A stretch of 64,000 nucleotides of DNA. Origin: Bacteroidetes bacterium GWF2_40_14. Lineage in GTDB: Bacteria; Bacteroidota; Bacteroidia; Bacteroidales; UBA932. The notes under the pieces were generated by a model. The model did not search any database. It was not told the DNA's origin and was given only the letters and a program-made list of their open reading frames with translations. A program made the translations under genes and the position numbers. This document shows, piece after piece, positions 10,808 to 46,242 of the stretch (positions are counted from its first letter, which is position 1; each line of letters starts with the position of its first letter). The DNA lies in assembly GCA_001769195.1 (NCBI GenBank), contig MEOK01000026.1:1-64000 (forward strand), given 5' to 3'.

Positions 10808-11992
10808 TTAGTTTTTTTTGGATAGTACTATTGCGTCGTCGATTATGTTCCATTCCAGACCGGCACTTTCTGTAATCAGTTCAATAATCTCCTTTGGATC
10901 ATAGGATTTTAGCAATTTGCCGGAAAATCTTAAAGAGGAGAGATTTTCGTCCTGTAATACCAGTTTGAGGCCGTAAAACCTCTTTATCATTGTTGTAAGT
11001 TCATTCAGTGGAATGTTATGGAACCAGGTCTGGCCGTCTATCCATGAATTGTACTCTCTTACATCTACTTGTTGTGTTACAATTGACTGATTGCTCTGGT
11101 TATACCTTATCTGGTCACCCACGGCCAGTAATACTTGCTGGCTGTTTACTCCAACCTGTACAGATCCCTCGGATAGAGTCACATGGTGCGATGCATCATC
11201 ATCATAGCAACTTACATTGAAGTGTGTGCCCAATACCTTTGTTGTCAGCTTTTTTGTCTCAACAATAAATGGCGTTTTGTCTTTCTGTTTTGCTACTTCA
11301 AAATAGGCCTCTCCCTTGAGATAGACCCGTCTCTCCTTTCCGGTGAAGGTTACCGGATATCTTAATTCACTCTCTGCATTCAGCCATATTTTTGTGCCGT
11401 CGCTCAAAGTAATCTGGAATGTGCTTGCTATAGGAATTTTAAGGGTATTGTACTTAACCTCTGTTCCCTCTTTGGTCCCGGAATATGATAGACCGCTGGA
11501 CTCTTCGTTTTCAATCTTGACTCCTCCGTCCTCAATATTTGCCTTTAGCCCGGACAGTGCGACCTCCCTTCCATCCGAAAGCACCAGTGTTGGTGACTGA
11601 GACTTTATGACTGCCACTTTAATGTCCTTGTCGGCAAATTGTATCGGTTTATCCTTATAGTAATCATAAATGCCAAGAGTCAGCATTAGCAATGCCACGG
11701 CTGCAGCAGAGGTTATATATGTAAAGATGTTCCTCTTTCTCTTCTGTATGTGTCTTATTTTGATGCTTGCCTCTTCACCTAGGATGGTGTCAAGAATCTG
11801 CCTTGCTTCTGCCTCCTCGCATGCATTCAGTTTCCTGTTGACCTTACCGGCAACATACAACTTTTGAATACTCAGGAAGTAGCTCTTGTTTTGAGCTGAC
11901 TCTTCAATCCAATTCAATAGCTTCTGGTTTTCCTCAGTGGTGCTCTGATTGTTTAAAAACTTGACAATAATTAAATCCATTTCTATCTTCAT
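10808..11992 (-). CDS. FecR family anti-sigma regulator
   Basis: Central TM (YITSAAAVALLMLTLGIYDYY), FecR motif 'ITLSDGTKIWLNAESELRYPVTFTGKERRVYLKGEAYFEV', C-terminal DUF4974-like domain. Confidence 0.93.
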   Translation of the reverse strand: MKIEMDLIIVKFLNNQSTTEENQKLLNWIEESAQNKSYFLSIQKLYVAGKVNRKLNACEEAEARQILDTILGEEASIKIRHIQKRKRNIFTYITSAAAVALLMLTLGIYDYYKDKPIQFADKDIKVAVIKSQSPTLVLSDGREVALSGLKANIEDGGVKIENEESSGLSYSGTKEGTEVKYNTLKIPIASTFQITLSDGTKIWLNAESELRYPVTFTGKERRVYLKGEAYFEVAKQKDKTPFIVETKKLTTKVLGTHFNVSCYDDDASHHVTLSEGSVQVGVNSQQVLLAVGDQIRYNQSNQSIVTQQVDVREYNSWIDGQTWFHNIPLNELTTMIKRFYGLKLVLQDENLSSLRFSGKLLKSYDPKEIIELITESAGLEWNIIDDAIVLSKKN

Positions 11993-12012
11993 TTATATTA
12001 TAACGACATGAC

Positions 12013-12039
12013 GGGTATCATACCCTAACAAAAGGGTAT
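12013..12039. repeat. Short palindromic cluster: GGGTAT-c-ATACCC-taacaaaa-GGGTAT
   Basis: GGGTAT at 12013-12018, ATACCC at 12020-12025, GGGTAT at 12034-12039; direct copies 21 bp apart, just upstream of fecR. Confidence 0.6.
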
Positions 12040-12077
12040 TTATTTGTCAATATATCTTTTTTATTGGAATACGTGTG

Positions 12078-12203
12078 ATGGCAGGGGACATATCAACCGT
12101 AGTATTCATTAGTGGTATGAAAGTAGCACTGATCCCTATAATTTACGGTAGTCTCATTTATCTGCTCTCGCTGATTATACGGGTTATCCCGAAGCCAAGA
12201 TAG
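12078..12203 (+). pseudogene. Decayed fragment homologous to the C-terminus of the mini-ExbB-like protein at 13045-13356
   Basis: Translates as MAGDISTVVFISGMKVALIPIIYGSLIYLLSLIIRVIPKPR*, versus MVGDISSSVLAGGLKVALVPIIYGGLIYVLSLIIRITQKTKI at 13045-13356; 26 of 41 positions identical by eye. No matching N-terminal half upstream. Confidence 0.75.
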
Positions 12204-12204
12204 G

Positions 12205-12894
12205 TTATGAAAGTTTTTCTTTAACCATATCCCTGTACTTCCTGGATATTTCAATTGATTTTTCTCCAATGTTCACGATTGAAGAGTTATATGAGGTTAT
12301 ATGCTTTTTATTTAGCAGAAATGATCGGTGTACCCTTATAAAACGATGATCCAAAACATCTTCCCATTGGGTAATCTTCATTTTTGTCCTGTACGACGTT
12401 CCTGTGGTTGTTCTTATCCATACCTCATCGTCCTTTGACTCTACATAAGTAATCGAATCAATTTCAATTGATATCTTTTTCCGTTCAGATATAAATTCGA
12501 TAAACTTCTCCTCATATTCCGATGTGAACAATTTAATCGCAATAAACTTTTCAAGCGAAATAAAGGAGATAAGCAGAACCCAGATAAATATTGGATTAAT
12601 AATAATATTAGGACAATCGTCGAGTTCATATTTTAATAAATACCAATACGAGAGAAATATTCCCAGATATTCTATGAATAATGTGGATAATGCCAGATAA
12701 AGTGAATTTAGCACACCTTTTGCCCTGTTTTTAAACGAGATATCCTTTAAGAAATACTTCGCAAACAATGCTCCCGGCAAAAACATTACTGATAATAAAA
12801 GAGCATATGAAAATGACTTCAGTAAACTTACAAGAATACCACTCATAACCAGTGTCACGAGCGACCAGTATATTATGCTGAAATACTTTTTCAT
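12205..12894 (-). CDS. Membrane-anchored LytTR-domain transcriptional regulator
   Basis: Several N-terminal TM helices; C-terminal LytTR signature 'WEDVLDHRFIRVHRSFLLNKKHITSYNSSIVNIGEKSIEISRKYRDMVKEKL'. Confidence 0.85.
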   Translation of the reverse strand: MKKYFSIIYWSLVTLVMSGILVSLLKSFSYALLLSVMFLPGALFAKYFLKDISFKNRAKGVLNSLYLALSTLFIEYLGIFLSYWYLLKYELDDCPNIIINPIFIWVLLISFISLEKFIAIKLFTSEYEEKFIEFISERKKISIEIDSITYVESKDDEVWIRTTTGTSYRTKMKITQWEDVLDHRFIRVHRSFLLNKKHITSYNSSIVNIGEKSIEISRKYRDMVKEKLS

Positions 12895-13013
12895 ACAGTA
12901 AAATTAGGTATTCTTCCGTCATATGTAAATAAATCTTTGACCCTCAAAGCACAATAGGGGGATTTGACATATCCGGAACAGGTTTTTACTTAAGCAAAAA
13001 GGAGATTATGAGC

Positions 13014-13021
13014 TAATTTTG
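13014..13021 (+). promoter_or_regulatory. Candidate Bacteroidetes -7 element (TAnnTTTG) for mini-ExbB gene
   Basis: TAATTTTG 23 bp before ATG 13045. Confidence 0.45.
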
Positions 13022-13044
13022 CTGAAACATTTAAAACCAATATT

Positions 13045-13356
13045 ATGATTAATTTATTTTACATGGGAGGTCCCCTCTTTATGAGTATCCTCACAATTGA
13101 ACTGATTTTCCTGCTTGTCGCTGCTTGGAAAGCTCCCGCCTGGGTAAAGGAGATTGGTCTGATAGCGTTGATGACAGGAATTATGAGTGTATTTACAAGT
13201 TTGTATCATGCTTTTGACGCAATTCAGATGGTAGGTGATATATCCTCCTCTGTTCTAGCCGGTGGTTTAAAAGTAGCACTGGTTCCAATTATTTACGGAG
13301 GTTTGATTTATGTTTTGTCGCTTATTATCCGGATTACGCAAAAGACTAAGATTTAG
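13045..13356 (+). CDS. Small MotA/TolQ/ExbB-like integral membrane protein (103 aa)
   Basis: C-terminal half aligns to the window's own ExbB (43966-44730): 'HAFDAIQMVGDISSSVLAGGLKVALVPIIYGGLI' vs 'QAFDAIEAAGDISPNVVAGGMKVALITTVGGLVV'. Confidence 0.75.
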   Translation: MINLFYMGGPLFMSILTIELIFLLVAAWKAPAWVKEIGLIALMTGIMSVFTSLYHAFDAIQMVGDISSSVLAGGLKVALVPIIYGGLIYVLSLIIRITQKTKI

Positions 13357-13515
13357 CGGATGTGCACCAGCCAGAGGTGCTCCAGCCCTATGCTTTCATG
13401 GCATGTGCCTAATTATCAATGCATTAACATAAAAGTCAATTTTATGTAAATTACTGAATTTCAGCGTTTGGCCATGAAAGCATAGGGCTGATCATTTCAC
13501 CTCTGTACGACCGCT
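13355..13515. repeat. Long concentric palindromic element (possible MITE or structured RNA)
   Basis: Nested arms about a common centre (~13436): AGCGG 13355-13359/CCGCT 13511-13515; AGAGGTG 13373-13379/CACCTCT 13498-13504; perfect 20 bp CAGCCCTATGCTTTCATGGC 13383-13402/GCCATGAAAGCATAGGGCTG 13471-13490; ACATAAAA 13427-13434/TTTTATGT 13440-13447. Confidence 0.85.
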
Positions 13516-13593
13516 TTAGATTTTTGAAAAAATTGTGAATTGGGACACTTTTTTACTTGATTAATCATTACATTTATCCAAAATATTAATGTT

Positions 13594-14433
13594 ATGACGA
13601 AGGAAAATGCCATCAGGATTTTTGAAAAAAAGAGAGTGCGCTCTGTATGGGATAGTGATGTAGAGAAATGGTATATTTCAATAATTGATGTTATTGAGGT
13701 ATTAACAGAAAGTACAAATCCAAGACGATATTGGAGTGATTTGAAAATTAAATTATCGATTGAGGGCAGTCAGTTGTACGAAAATATCGTACAACTCAAA
13801 TTACCATCTACTGATGGCAAATCATACAAAACCGATGTTGCTGATGTTGAACAACTCTTCCGCCTAATCCAGTCTATTCCATCACCTAAAGCAGAACCCT
13901 TTAAAGTATGGCTGGCTCAGGTTGCCCGAGAACGTCTGGAAGAAATTGATGACCCGGAACAAGGTATTGACCGGCTTTTGGAATATTATCATCGAAAAGG
14001 TTATTCTGCAAGCTGGATAAATCAACGACTAAAATCTATCGAGGTCCGCAAAGACCTTACAGATGAGTGGGAAATGAGAGGTGTAAAGAAGGGGCAGGAA
14101 TTTGCCAACCTGACAGATATCATAACTAATGCATGGGCAAACATGACCACCAAGCAGTTCAAGCAGTTTAAGGGATTAAAGACAGAGGGTCTGCGCGATA
14201 ATATGACTACAATGGAATTGATATTAAATATGCTTGCAGAAGCTACTACTACAGAAATATCAAAAGAGAAAAAGCCAACAAATCTATCAGAAAATCAGAA
14301 AATTGCGCTTGAAGGGGGCACAATTGCCGGAAACACAAGAAAAGCAATTGAAGAAAAAACCGGAAAGAAAATCGTTTCCAGACTAAATGCAAAGACAATG
14401 TTGTCAATCGACACTAAATCTGAGGAAGATTAA
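13594..14433 (+). CDS. Bro-N (BRO/antirepressor-like) domain protein
   Basis: 'VRSVWDSDVEKWYISIIDVIEVLTESTNPRRYWSDLKIKL...VADVEQLFRLIQSIPSPKAEPFKVWLAQV' resembles the Bro-N family of putative DNA-binding proteins. Confidence 0.65.
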   Translation: MTKENAIRIFEKKRVRSVWDSDVEKWYISIIDVIEVLTESTNPRRYWSDLKIKLSIEGSQLYENIVQLKLPSTDGKSYKTDVADVEQLFRLIQSIPSPKAEPFKVWLAQVARERLEEIDDPEQGIDRLLEYYHRKGYSASWINQRLKSIEVRKDLTDEWEMRGVKKGQEFANLTDIITNAWANMTTKQFKQFKGLKTEGLRDNMTTMELILNMLAEATTTEISKEKKPTNLSENQKIALEGGTIAGNTRKAIEEKTGKKIVSRLNAKTMLSIDTKSEED

Positions 14434-45177: not shown

Positions 45178-45756
45178 ATGGCTAGACCAGCACAGCAACT
45201 CCCATCGTCCTCATTGGCCGATATTGCATTCATGGTTCTCATATTCTTTCTTTTGGTATCCACTATGGATCAGGATCTTGGACTGCAGCGTCGTCTGCCA
45301 CCCATGCCTGACCCTAACCAGAAAGCTGACGACGTACAGATTAAACGTCGTAATATGATGATTGTCAGACTAAACGAAAATGATCGCCTGCTAGCAGGTG
45401 GGTCGCAGATTGATGTCAGCATGCTCAAGGATAAGGCAATGGAATTCCTTCTCAATAATGGGAATGATGAAAATTTGCCTGAAAGGGAGGTAAAGACAAT
45501 TGAAGGTTTTGGGTCCTATCCTGTTTCAAAAGGTGTAATTTCTCTTCAGAATCATCGTGGTACAAGTTATGATGCTTATCTTAAGGTTCAGAACGAACTT
45601 GTAAAGGCAGTTAACATAATTCGCGATGAATTTGCTATGACTAACTTCGGGAAAATTTACATTAACCTTGACGAAGAGAAACAACGTATAGTAAGAGACG
45701 CAATACCTCAGAATATTTCTGAGGCAGAACCAAAAGATACAGGTAGAAAGAAATAA
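45178..45756 (+). CDS. exbD: ExbD/TolR family biopolymer transporter
   Basis: 'LPSSSLADIAFMVLIFFLLVSTMDQD' N-terminal TM with conserved Asp. Confidence 0.92.
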   Translation: MARPAQQLPSSSLADIAFMVLIFFLLVSTMDQDLGLQRRLPPMPDPNQKADDVQIKRRNMMIVRLNENDRLLAGGSQIDVSMLKDKAMEFLLNNGNDENLPEREVKTIEGFGSYPVSKGVISLQNHRGTSYDAYLKVQNELVKAVNIIRDEFAMTNFGKIYINLDEEKQRIVRDAIPQNISEAEPKDTGRKK

Positions 45757-45768
45757 AAAAACAGAAAA

Positions 45769-46242
45769 ATGGCAAAATTTTCAAGAAAAGGTAAAGGAGG
45801 AACTCCGGAACTGAGTACCTCGTCACTTGCGGATATTGTGTTCATGATACTGCTGTTTTTTATGGTTACTACCAGTATGAGACAGACAGAAAGAATGGTT
45901 GTTATAAAGATGCCTGAAGCCTCTGAAATAGCAAAGCTTGAAAGAAAGGACCTTTCTGCGTATATATTTGTCGGTACCCCAATGCCTAATTTACAGGCAC
46001 AATATGGTAACGACTCTCGTATCCAGTTAAACGATTCATTCAAGACCATTGACGACATCCGCGACTTTATAGCTGCTGAACGTGAAAACCTCAGTGAAGC
46101 TGACCGTCAATATATGACCGTATCCATCAAGGCAGACGAAACTGTCCGTATGGGTATTATTTCAGATATCAAACAAGAGTTAAGAAGAACTTCTGCTCTT
46201 AAGATAATGTATGCGGCCAGAAGGTCGGCCCCCGTACAATAG
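45769..46242 (+). CDS. exbD: ExbD/TolR family biopolymer transporter
   Basis: 'ELSTSSLADIVFMILLFFMVTTSMRQTE', C-terminal 'VSIKADETVRMGIISDIKQELRR'. Confidence 0.92.
   Translation: MAKFSRKGKGGTPELSTSSLADIVFMILLFFMVTTSMRQTERMVVIKMPEASEIAKLERKDLSAYIFVGTPMPNLQAQYGNDSRIQLNDSFKTIDDIRDFIAAERENLSEADRQYMTVSIKADETVRMGIISDIKQELRRTSALKIMYAARRSAPVQ

Follow-up and report, generated by a model that had tools for sequence, protein, structure and literature searches.

Two genes lie head-to-head in the window, the whole 64,000-nucleotide stretch of DNA that was analysed, which comes from contig C26 of a 3.36 Mb Bacteroidales genome. Their start codons are separated by an intergenic region of 150 bp (12895-13044). 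The minus-strand gene (12205..12894) encodes a 229-residue LytTR one-component regulator that is predicted to be tethered to the membrane. Residues 141-228 (12211..12474, minus strand) match the Pfam LytTR DNA-binding domain (E=2e-16, 60.4 bits), and the best PDB matches of the structure model are LytTR domains, including those of AgrA and ComE (Foldseek, E=1e-7). The N-terminal part, residues ~1-127 (12514..12894, minus strand), is a putative sensor domain with four TM helices, identified from the model helices and from homology to LytS-type kinases. In the AlphaFold model (pLDDT 87.8) the helices span residues 2-22, 28-49, 57-87 and 101-123 and are followed by the LytTR beta fold. Pfam finds neither a receiver nor a kinase domain in the 229-residue protein.

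The plus-strand gene (13045..13356) encodes a membrane protein of 103 residues with three predicted TM helices (model pLDDT 87.0), referred to here as mini-ExbB on the basis of Pfam, the structure model, Foldseek and hhalign. The original prediction had described a minus-strand gene that joins a multi-TM region to a LytTR domain, lacks a receiver and is divergent from its neighbor across about 150 bp. Pfam and the model bear out this domain layout, and the measured gap agrees.

The intergenic region contains a candidate operator formed by two boxes, GGGGATTTGAC (box 1, 12958..12968, plus strand) and, 21 bp downstream, CAGGTTTTTAC (box 2, 12979..12989, plus strand). Both were identified by the two-box motif, and box 2 also by a pattern search of the window's own genome. 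The putative -7 box of the mini-ExbB promoter, TAATTTTG (13014..13021, plus strand), follows the Bacteroidota pattern TAnnTTTG and was assigned from its register, 24 bp after box 2. On the opposite strand, a putative -7 box of the LytTR gene, TAATTTTA (12899..12906, minus strand), is located 51 bp from box 1, as judged from the sequence and the register classes described below. It lies close to the start codon in a leaderless-like arrangement. A generic sigma-70 promoter scan performed no better than chance, and the Bacteroidota -7 boxes were used instead. The search for Rfam RNA families in 11900-13700 found none, and PADLOC reported no defence families.

Recurrence of the pair and its operator

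The LytTR/mini-ExbB pairing extends well beyond this locus. Among 200 genomes from the same family, both genes are present in 46 and neither in 149, while mini-ExbB occurs alone in 2 and the regulator alone in 3 (Fisher p=4e-39); regulator relatives (E<1e-20) are found in 49 of the 200. Of the three regulator-only cases, L050 is a contig-edge artefact that holds a cut mini-ExbB, G194 is a fragment at a contig edge, and in L188 the regulator is truncated. Mini-ExbB without a regulator occurs once as an intact gene (L186) and once as a pseudogene (L187). A scan of 84,980 species returned 242 relatives, and among the best 80 loci nearly all have the regulator as a direct neighbor. The loci retrieved contain 99 distinct mini-ExbBs that are head-to-head with the regulator and 3 in tandem with it, the latter with mini-ExbB upstream and 22-44 bp between the genes. 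Genome-neighborhood search, one of the checks put forward with the original prediction, thus finds strong recurrence of the adjacency. That prediction had also named a candidate undescribed two-gene system; the module is recurrent, and we found no description of LytTR and ExbB as one system in the literature searched, which lay largely outside subscription journals.

No third gene is conserved next to the pair in the 80 loci, and the flanks vary. At one locus (L258:1663-3185), a thioredoxin-like gene (DUF4369 and AhpC-TSA) separates the operator from mini-ExbB and apparently shares one operon with it, indicating that the cargo can vary. Mini-ExbB and regulator diverge in parallel (Mantel r=0.80), mostly as a result of species history. 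Because nearest-neighbor concordance between the two is only 51%, we do not claim fine co-evolution.

A 21-bp pitch between repeats is a hallmark of LytTR binding sites. Two GGGG[AT]TT[TC]GAC boxes, separated by 10 bp and with an exact 21-bp pitch, are present in 72 of 76 non-redundant intergenic regions. The operator scores 25.5 bits on average, compared with -1.9 bits in shuffled sequences (99th percentile 11.5), a score that is optimistic since the matrix was trained on the same sequences; the spacer was left free, with 8-15 bp allowed. The window operator itself reaches 27.1 bits, and the next best site in the window 14.3. In all three tandem loci the operator is positioned upstream of the mini-regulator operon (27-30 bits). 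It is gone where the regulator has been lost (L186, 2.3 bits) and at the regulator-less pseudogene (L187, -2.0 bits).

The position of the operator relative to the promoters is also constrained. In 60 of 69 loci (87%, chance 0.3%), the -7 box of mini-ExbB follows box 2 at a distance of either 23-25 bp (42 loci) or 34-36 bp (18 loci), counts that are inflated by shared descent. The two classes differ by one helical turn. Toward the regulator, box 1 is 39-42, 51-52 or 61-63 bp from the -7 box (17 bp in 2 loci), and an 11-bp period fits these distances best. The existence of separate register classes argues for a dependence on the face of the helix, despite shared descent.

The window's own genome contains one exact operator site, which remains single with up to 2 mismatches; the sole site with 3 mismatches lies inside an ORF. 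This search used a consensus pattern with at most 3 mismatches rather than a weight matrix, and diverged sites may escape it. The result suggests that, in the window's own lineage, the regulator controls mini-ExbB and little else. Since the operator is conserved at the mini-ExbB promoter and is the single site in its own genome, the regulator probably has mini-ExbB as its dedicated target and not only as its partner. With 2 mismatches, the family-wide pattern gives scattered matches in genomes that lack the pair, and it was not used to define regulons. In one genome (G156), contigs C107, C158 and C162 carry tandem arrays of an operator-like 21-bp unit, GGGTTTCAACAATCGATAGAT, close to the contig starts.

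ExbB ancestry and a shared sensor domain

MotA_ExbB is the sole informative Pfam match for mini-ExbB, and the window protein falls below its threshold (19.5 vs 22.9 bits). Longer relatives pass in 6 of 7 tested cases with 23-45 bits (maximum 44.9). The best 26 Foldseek matches of mini-ExbB are all ExbB, TolQ, MotA, PomA or ZorA chains, with probabilities of 0.60-1.00 but E > 0.1. Direct sequence search of the PDB returned no matches for the profile of the short minis; the long-mini profile matched TolQ chains at E=1.3e-4 and ExbB chains at E=0.003. In profile-profile comparison by hhalign against 28 full-length ExbB proteins from the same phylum, short minis match with a probability of 98.5% and long minis with 99.6%. 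The match spans the TM core, and the cytoplasmic loop is absent. In its place mini-ExbB has a short loop, WKAPAWVKEIG, which by its likeness to ExbB is predicted to be cytoplasmic. On these profile matches, mini-ExbB corresponds to a Bacteroidota ExbB minus its cytoplasmic loop, and we accept its ExbB ancestry. The ExbB/TolQ-like core that had been predicted for the 103-residue protein is thereby upheld.

A role as a proton channel is doubtful. The threonines in TM2 and TM3, which we take to be the pore residues of ExbB and TolQ, are each present in 28 of 28 full-length ExbB proteins. Neither is kept in the minis: the TM2 threonine is found in 20 of 34 short minis and in 0 of 19 sequences of the long-mini alignment, where it is mostly Gln, and the TM3 threonine in 7 of 34 and 7 of 19, respectively. 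This weakens the earlier proposal of a proton-channel-derived protein that reports envelope energisation. No gene resembling ExbD, TolR or MotB recurs beside the minis in the 80 loci, and no dedicated ExbD was found there. The full-length ExbB of the window, by contrast, precedes two ORFs resembling ExbD (45178-46242).

Long minis of ~119-145 residues are spread across the phylum. A LytTR domain or a LytS-type kinase is encoded within ~1.5 kb at 29 of 34 short-ExbB loci, which derive from order- and phylum-level searches outside the family set, compared with 0 of 28 loci for full-length ExbB. The partner is a 4-TM LytTR regulator at L145-L149, L166, L223-L225, L227, L228, L232, L241 and others, and a kinase with a LytTR response regulator at, for example, L174-L180, L183 and L229-L231. 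The operator boxes were not found at the kinase-linked mini promoters. A few minis have other partners, namely a GntR-family regulator with an SPFH/Band-7 gene (L182:3983-5708, L174, L181) and a PadR regulator with a membrane protein, located upstream of mini-ExbB (L237:1468-2986). The window's own genome contains a second mini-ExbB of 129 residues (L064:4881-5270, contig C4) between two LytS/LytTR two-component systems; the stop codon of this mini-ExbB has a 4-bp overlap with the stop codon of a LytTR response regulator. A plasmid search gave one true mini only, on a Persicobacter megaplasmid; Persicobacter psychrovividus plasmid pPP1 (L256) is a cultured example of the one-component wiring. 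At L225:602-1416, the regulator adjoining a long mini appears to be split by a frameshift.

The sensor domains of these systems are related. The 4-TM domain of the window type matches that of LytS-type histidine kinases with an hhalign probability of 90.7% and that of the long-type regulators, which lie beside long minis, with 95.8%. Long-type regulators and kinases match with 99.9%, and reversed, shuffled and unrelated controls all remain below 1%. By this homology, the 4-TM sensor domain is common to the one-component LytTR regulators and the LytS-type kinases, and a single sensor domain is thus connected with one type of gene by two routes, a two-component system or a fused one-component regulator. 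As the regulator has a kinase-type sensor domain of its own, mini-ExbB need not be the sensor.

A proposed regulator/target circuit and its alternatives

We consider it fairly likely that the two genes form a self-contained circuit of regulator and target. The 4-TM domain of the regulator would sense a membrane or envelope condition, and the LytTR domain, tethered at the membrane beside its own gene, would bind the two direct repeats 21 bp apart. The bound regulator would activate mini-ExbB, a direction of control suggested by the promoter register, and probably acts on its own divergent promoter as well. The position of box 2, which abuts the -33 region in the commoner register class, speaks against activation; the kinase-linked promoters, at which these boxes were not found, speak against the circuit more broadly. 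Mini-ExbB would be the output of the circuit, our best guess being a small non-motor ExbB in the inner membrane. It might join or cap ExbB/TolQ-type assemblies, or feed back on the regulator. An output role is favored because an intact mini-ExbB persists without a regulator (L186) and because minis also pair with complete kinase systems and with the GntR/SPFH and PadR genes.

The circuit would tie the membrane LytTR regulators of Bacteroidota, a large and mostly unstudied class, to a defined operator and target, and make each of these testable. It would place a stator-type protein, cut down to its TM core, under dedicated control. The loci also form a natural series: two-component wiring in some, and a fused one-component protein in others, link one sensor domain to one type of gene. 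Should mini-ExbB act on Ton/Tol motors, it would represent control of envelope energy use by a small protein in gut and environmental Bacteroidota.

Similar arrangements are known from the LytTR Regulatory Systems (LRS) HdrRM and BrsRM, in which direct repeats of 9+12 bp are located upstream of the promoter driving the membrane gene (Zou et al. 2018, PMC6193735). Both kinds of system combine a LytTR regulator lacking receiver and kinase with an adjoining gene for a small membrane protein, and both have paired direct repeats with a pitch of ~21 bp upstream of the membrane-gene promoter (21 bp here, 9+12 in LRS). It is conceivable, if rather unlikely, that mini-ExbB serves mainly to inhibit the regulator or to sense alongside it, keeping it inactive in the manner of HdrM and BrsM, with feedback through the operator refilling the inhibitor. 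Such a role would fit the LRS-style direct repeats ahead of the membrane gene (PMC6193735), the operator preceding both genes in tandem loci, and the strict pairing with parallel divergence. The highly conserved loop WKAPAWVKEIG and the tail RIIQKPRI could contact a partner. Against it, the regulator already carries a kinase-type sensor domain, mini relatives are also found beside complete kinase/response-regulator pairs and non-LytTR regulators, and the parallel divergence mostly reflects species history. Inhibition by the membrane protein, a feature of LRS, may by analogy extend to mini-ExbB; restraint of this type would fit the gene arrangement and could add feedback to the circuit.

The S. 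mutans-type LRS have a soluble regulator, a regulator-first operon and a DUF3021/DUF2154 membrane protein; the regulator described here has four TM helices, the genes are usually divergent, with mini-ExbB first when tandem, and the membrane protein is ExbB-derived (MotA_ExbB). Comparable, too, are the LRS-like operons of Bacteroides, which encode a TM-LytTR protein and an NfeD/DUF2154 protein, and beyond which further varieties are considered likely (Zou et al., PMC6193735). They share the Bacteroidia origin, the multi-TM LytTR regulator, the membrane partner and direct repeats of 11 bp close to a TAnnTTTG promoter, and differ in having the NfeD/DUF2154 partner within the operon and another repeat sequence. 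The passages of PMC6193735 consulted do not mention an ExbB-type partner among the LRS varieties. The original prediction of an LRS analogue is partly supported: the recurrent pair and the direct repeats upstream of the membrane-gene promoter agree with it, and the operator modifies it by indicating that mini-ExbB is a target of the regulator.

A single target is also characteristic of BtsSR-btsT and YpdAB-yhjX, LytS/LytTR two-component systems with one target each, in which BtsR and YpdB are single-target regulators (PMC5552118). The likeness lies in a LytTR protein devoted to one membrane-protein gene and in the mini relatives beside LytS-type kinase/LytTR pairs. The difference is that sensor and LytTR domain are fused here and that the target is an ExbB fragment instead of a transporter. 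In sequence terms, the pair is LRS-like in layout and operator and BtsSR/YpdAB-like in its single target, and is not an LRS of the S. mutans type.

ExbB, TolQ, MotA and ZorA are the A-subunits of 5:2 rotary motors (PMC9389320). Mini-ExbB shares their TM core, sequence profile and fold, and differs from them in lacking the cytoplasmic domain, a dedicated ExbD-like gene and conserved pore threonines. In a broader reading, mini-ExbB would be a motor subunit put to new use, one that responds to LytTR sensors and in turn gates them; it would join ExbB/TolQ complexes or the 4-TM sensor to report or adjust envelope energisation, as a phylum-wide module with kinase-pair or fused wiring. Taken as a whole, we regard this as unlikely.

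Repression in place of activation appears improbable. The operator would then block the -33 region until a signal lifts the block, as for CoxC, a characterised membrane LytTR protein (MHYT-LytTR) that represses the cox genes from an operator overlapping the -35 (PMC11347149). CoxC resembles the regulator in its N-terminal TM sensor fused to LytTR and in its direct-repeat operator, but its sensor is a seven-TM MHYT domain, it acts as a repressor of cox genes, and it lacks an ExbB partner. Box 2 does abut the -33 region in the 24-bp class. In 18 of 61 loci with a located -7 box (~30%), however, the operator is one full helical turn further upstream with the register kept, which a roadblock does not need, and LytTR proteins that bind upstream of the -35 mostly activate (PMC11347149).

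Adjacency as inherited synteny without function, which the relatedness of many genomes and a largely inherited orientation would allow, is refuted in practice by the varying flanking genes, the tandem rearrangements that retain both genes and the operator, the coordinated loss of genes, and the pairing of minis with kinases elsewhere while full-length ExbB scores 0 of 28 as a control.

Second-copy remnant and flanking repeat

Tail-to-tail with the LytTR gene, and ending one base before it, lies a 3' remnant of a second mini-ExbB (12078..12203, plus strand). Its 42 codons, including the stop, have the translation MAGDISTVVFISGMKVALIPIIYGSLIYLLSLIIRVIPKPR and correspond to the last 41 mini-ExbB residues (58% identity). 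At the C-terminus, IPKPR of the remnant is closer to the family consensus IQKPRI than TQKTKI of the intact copy. The partial second copy reported in the original prediction is real, and the duplication of the pair that it was taken to suggest is plausible, as double pairs occur in relatives in both tandem and inverted form (L100, L061). The remnant may be what is left of a decayed pair, originally the first of two in tandem, since such decay would leave exactly this fragment and L100 is a relative that has two tandem pairs.

Downstream of mini-ExbB, before the gene that follows, is a palindromic element (13383-13490) with perfect 20-bp terminal arms. It is probably a MITE-like repeat, given its ~20 related copies in the window's own genome (34 matches over both orientations). 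Positions 13594-14433 encode a protein with a Bro-N domain (Pfam E=3.6e-9), the C-terminal part of which matches DdrC weakly.
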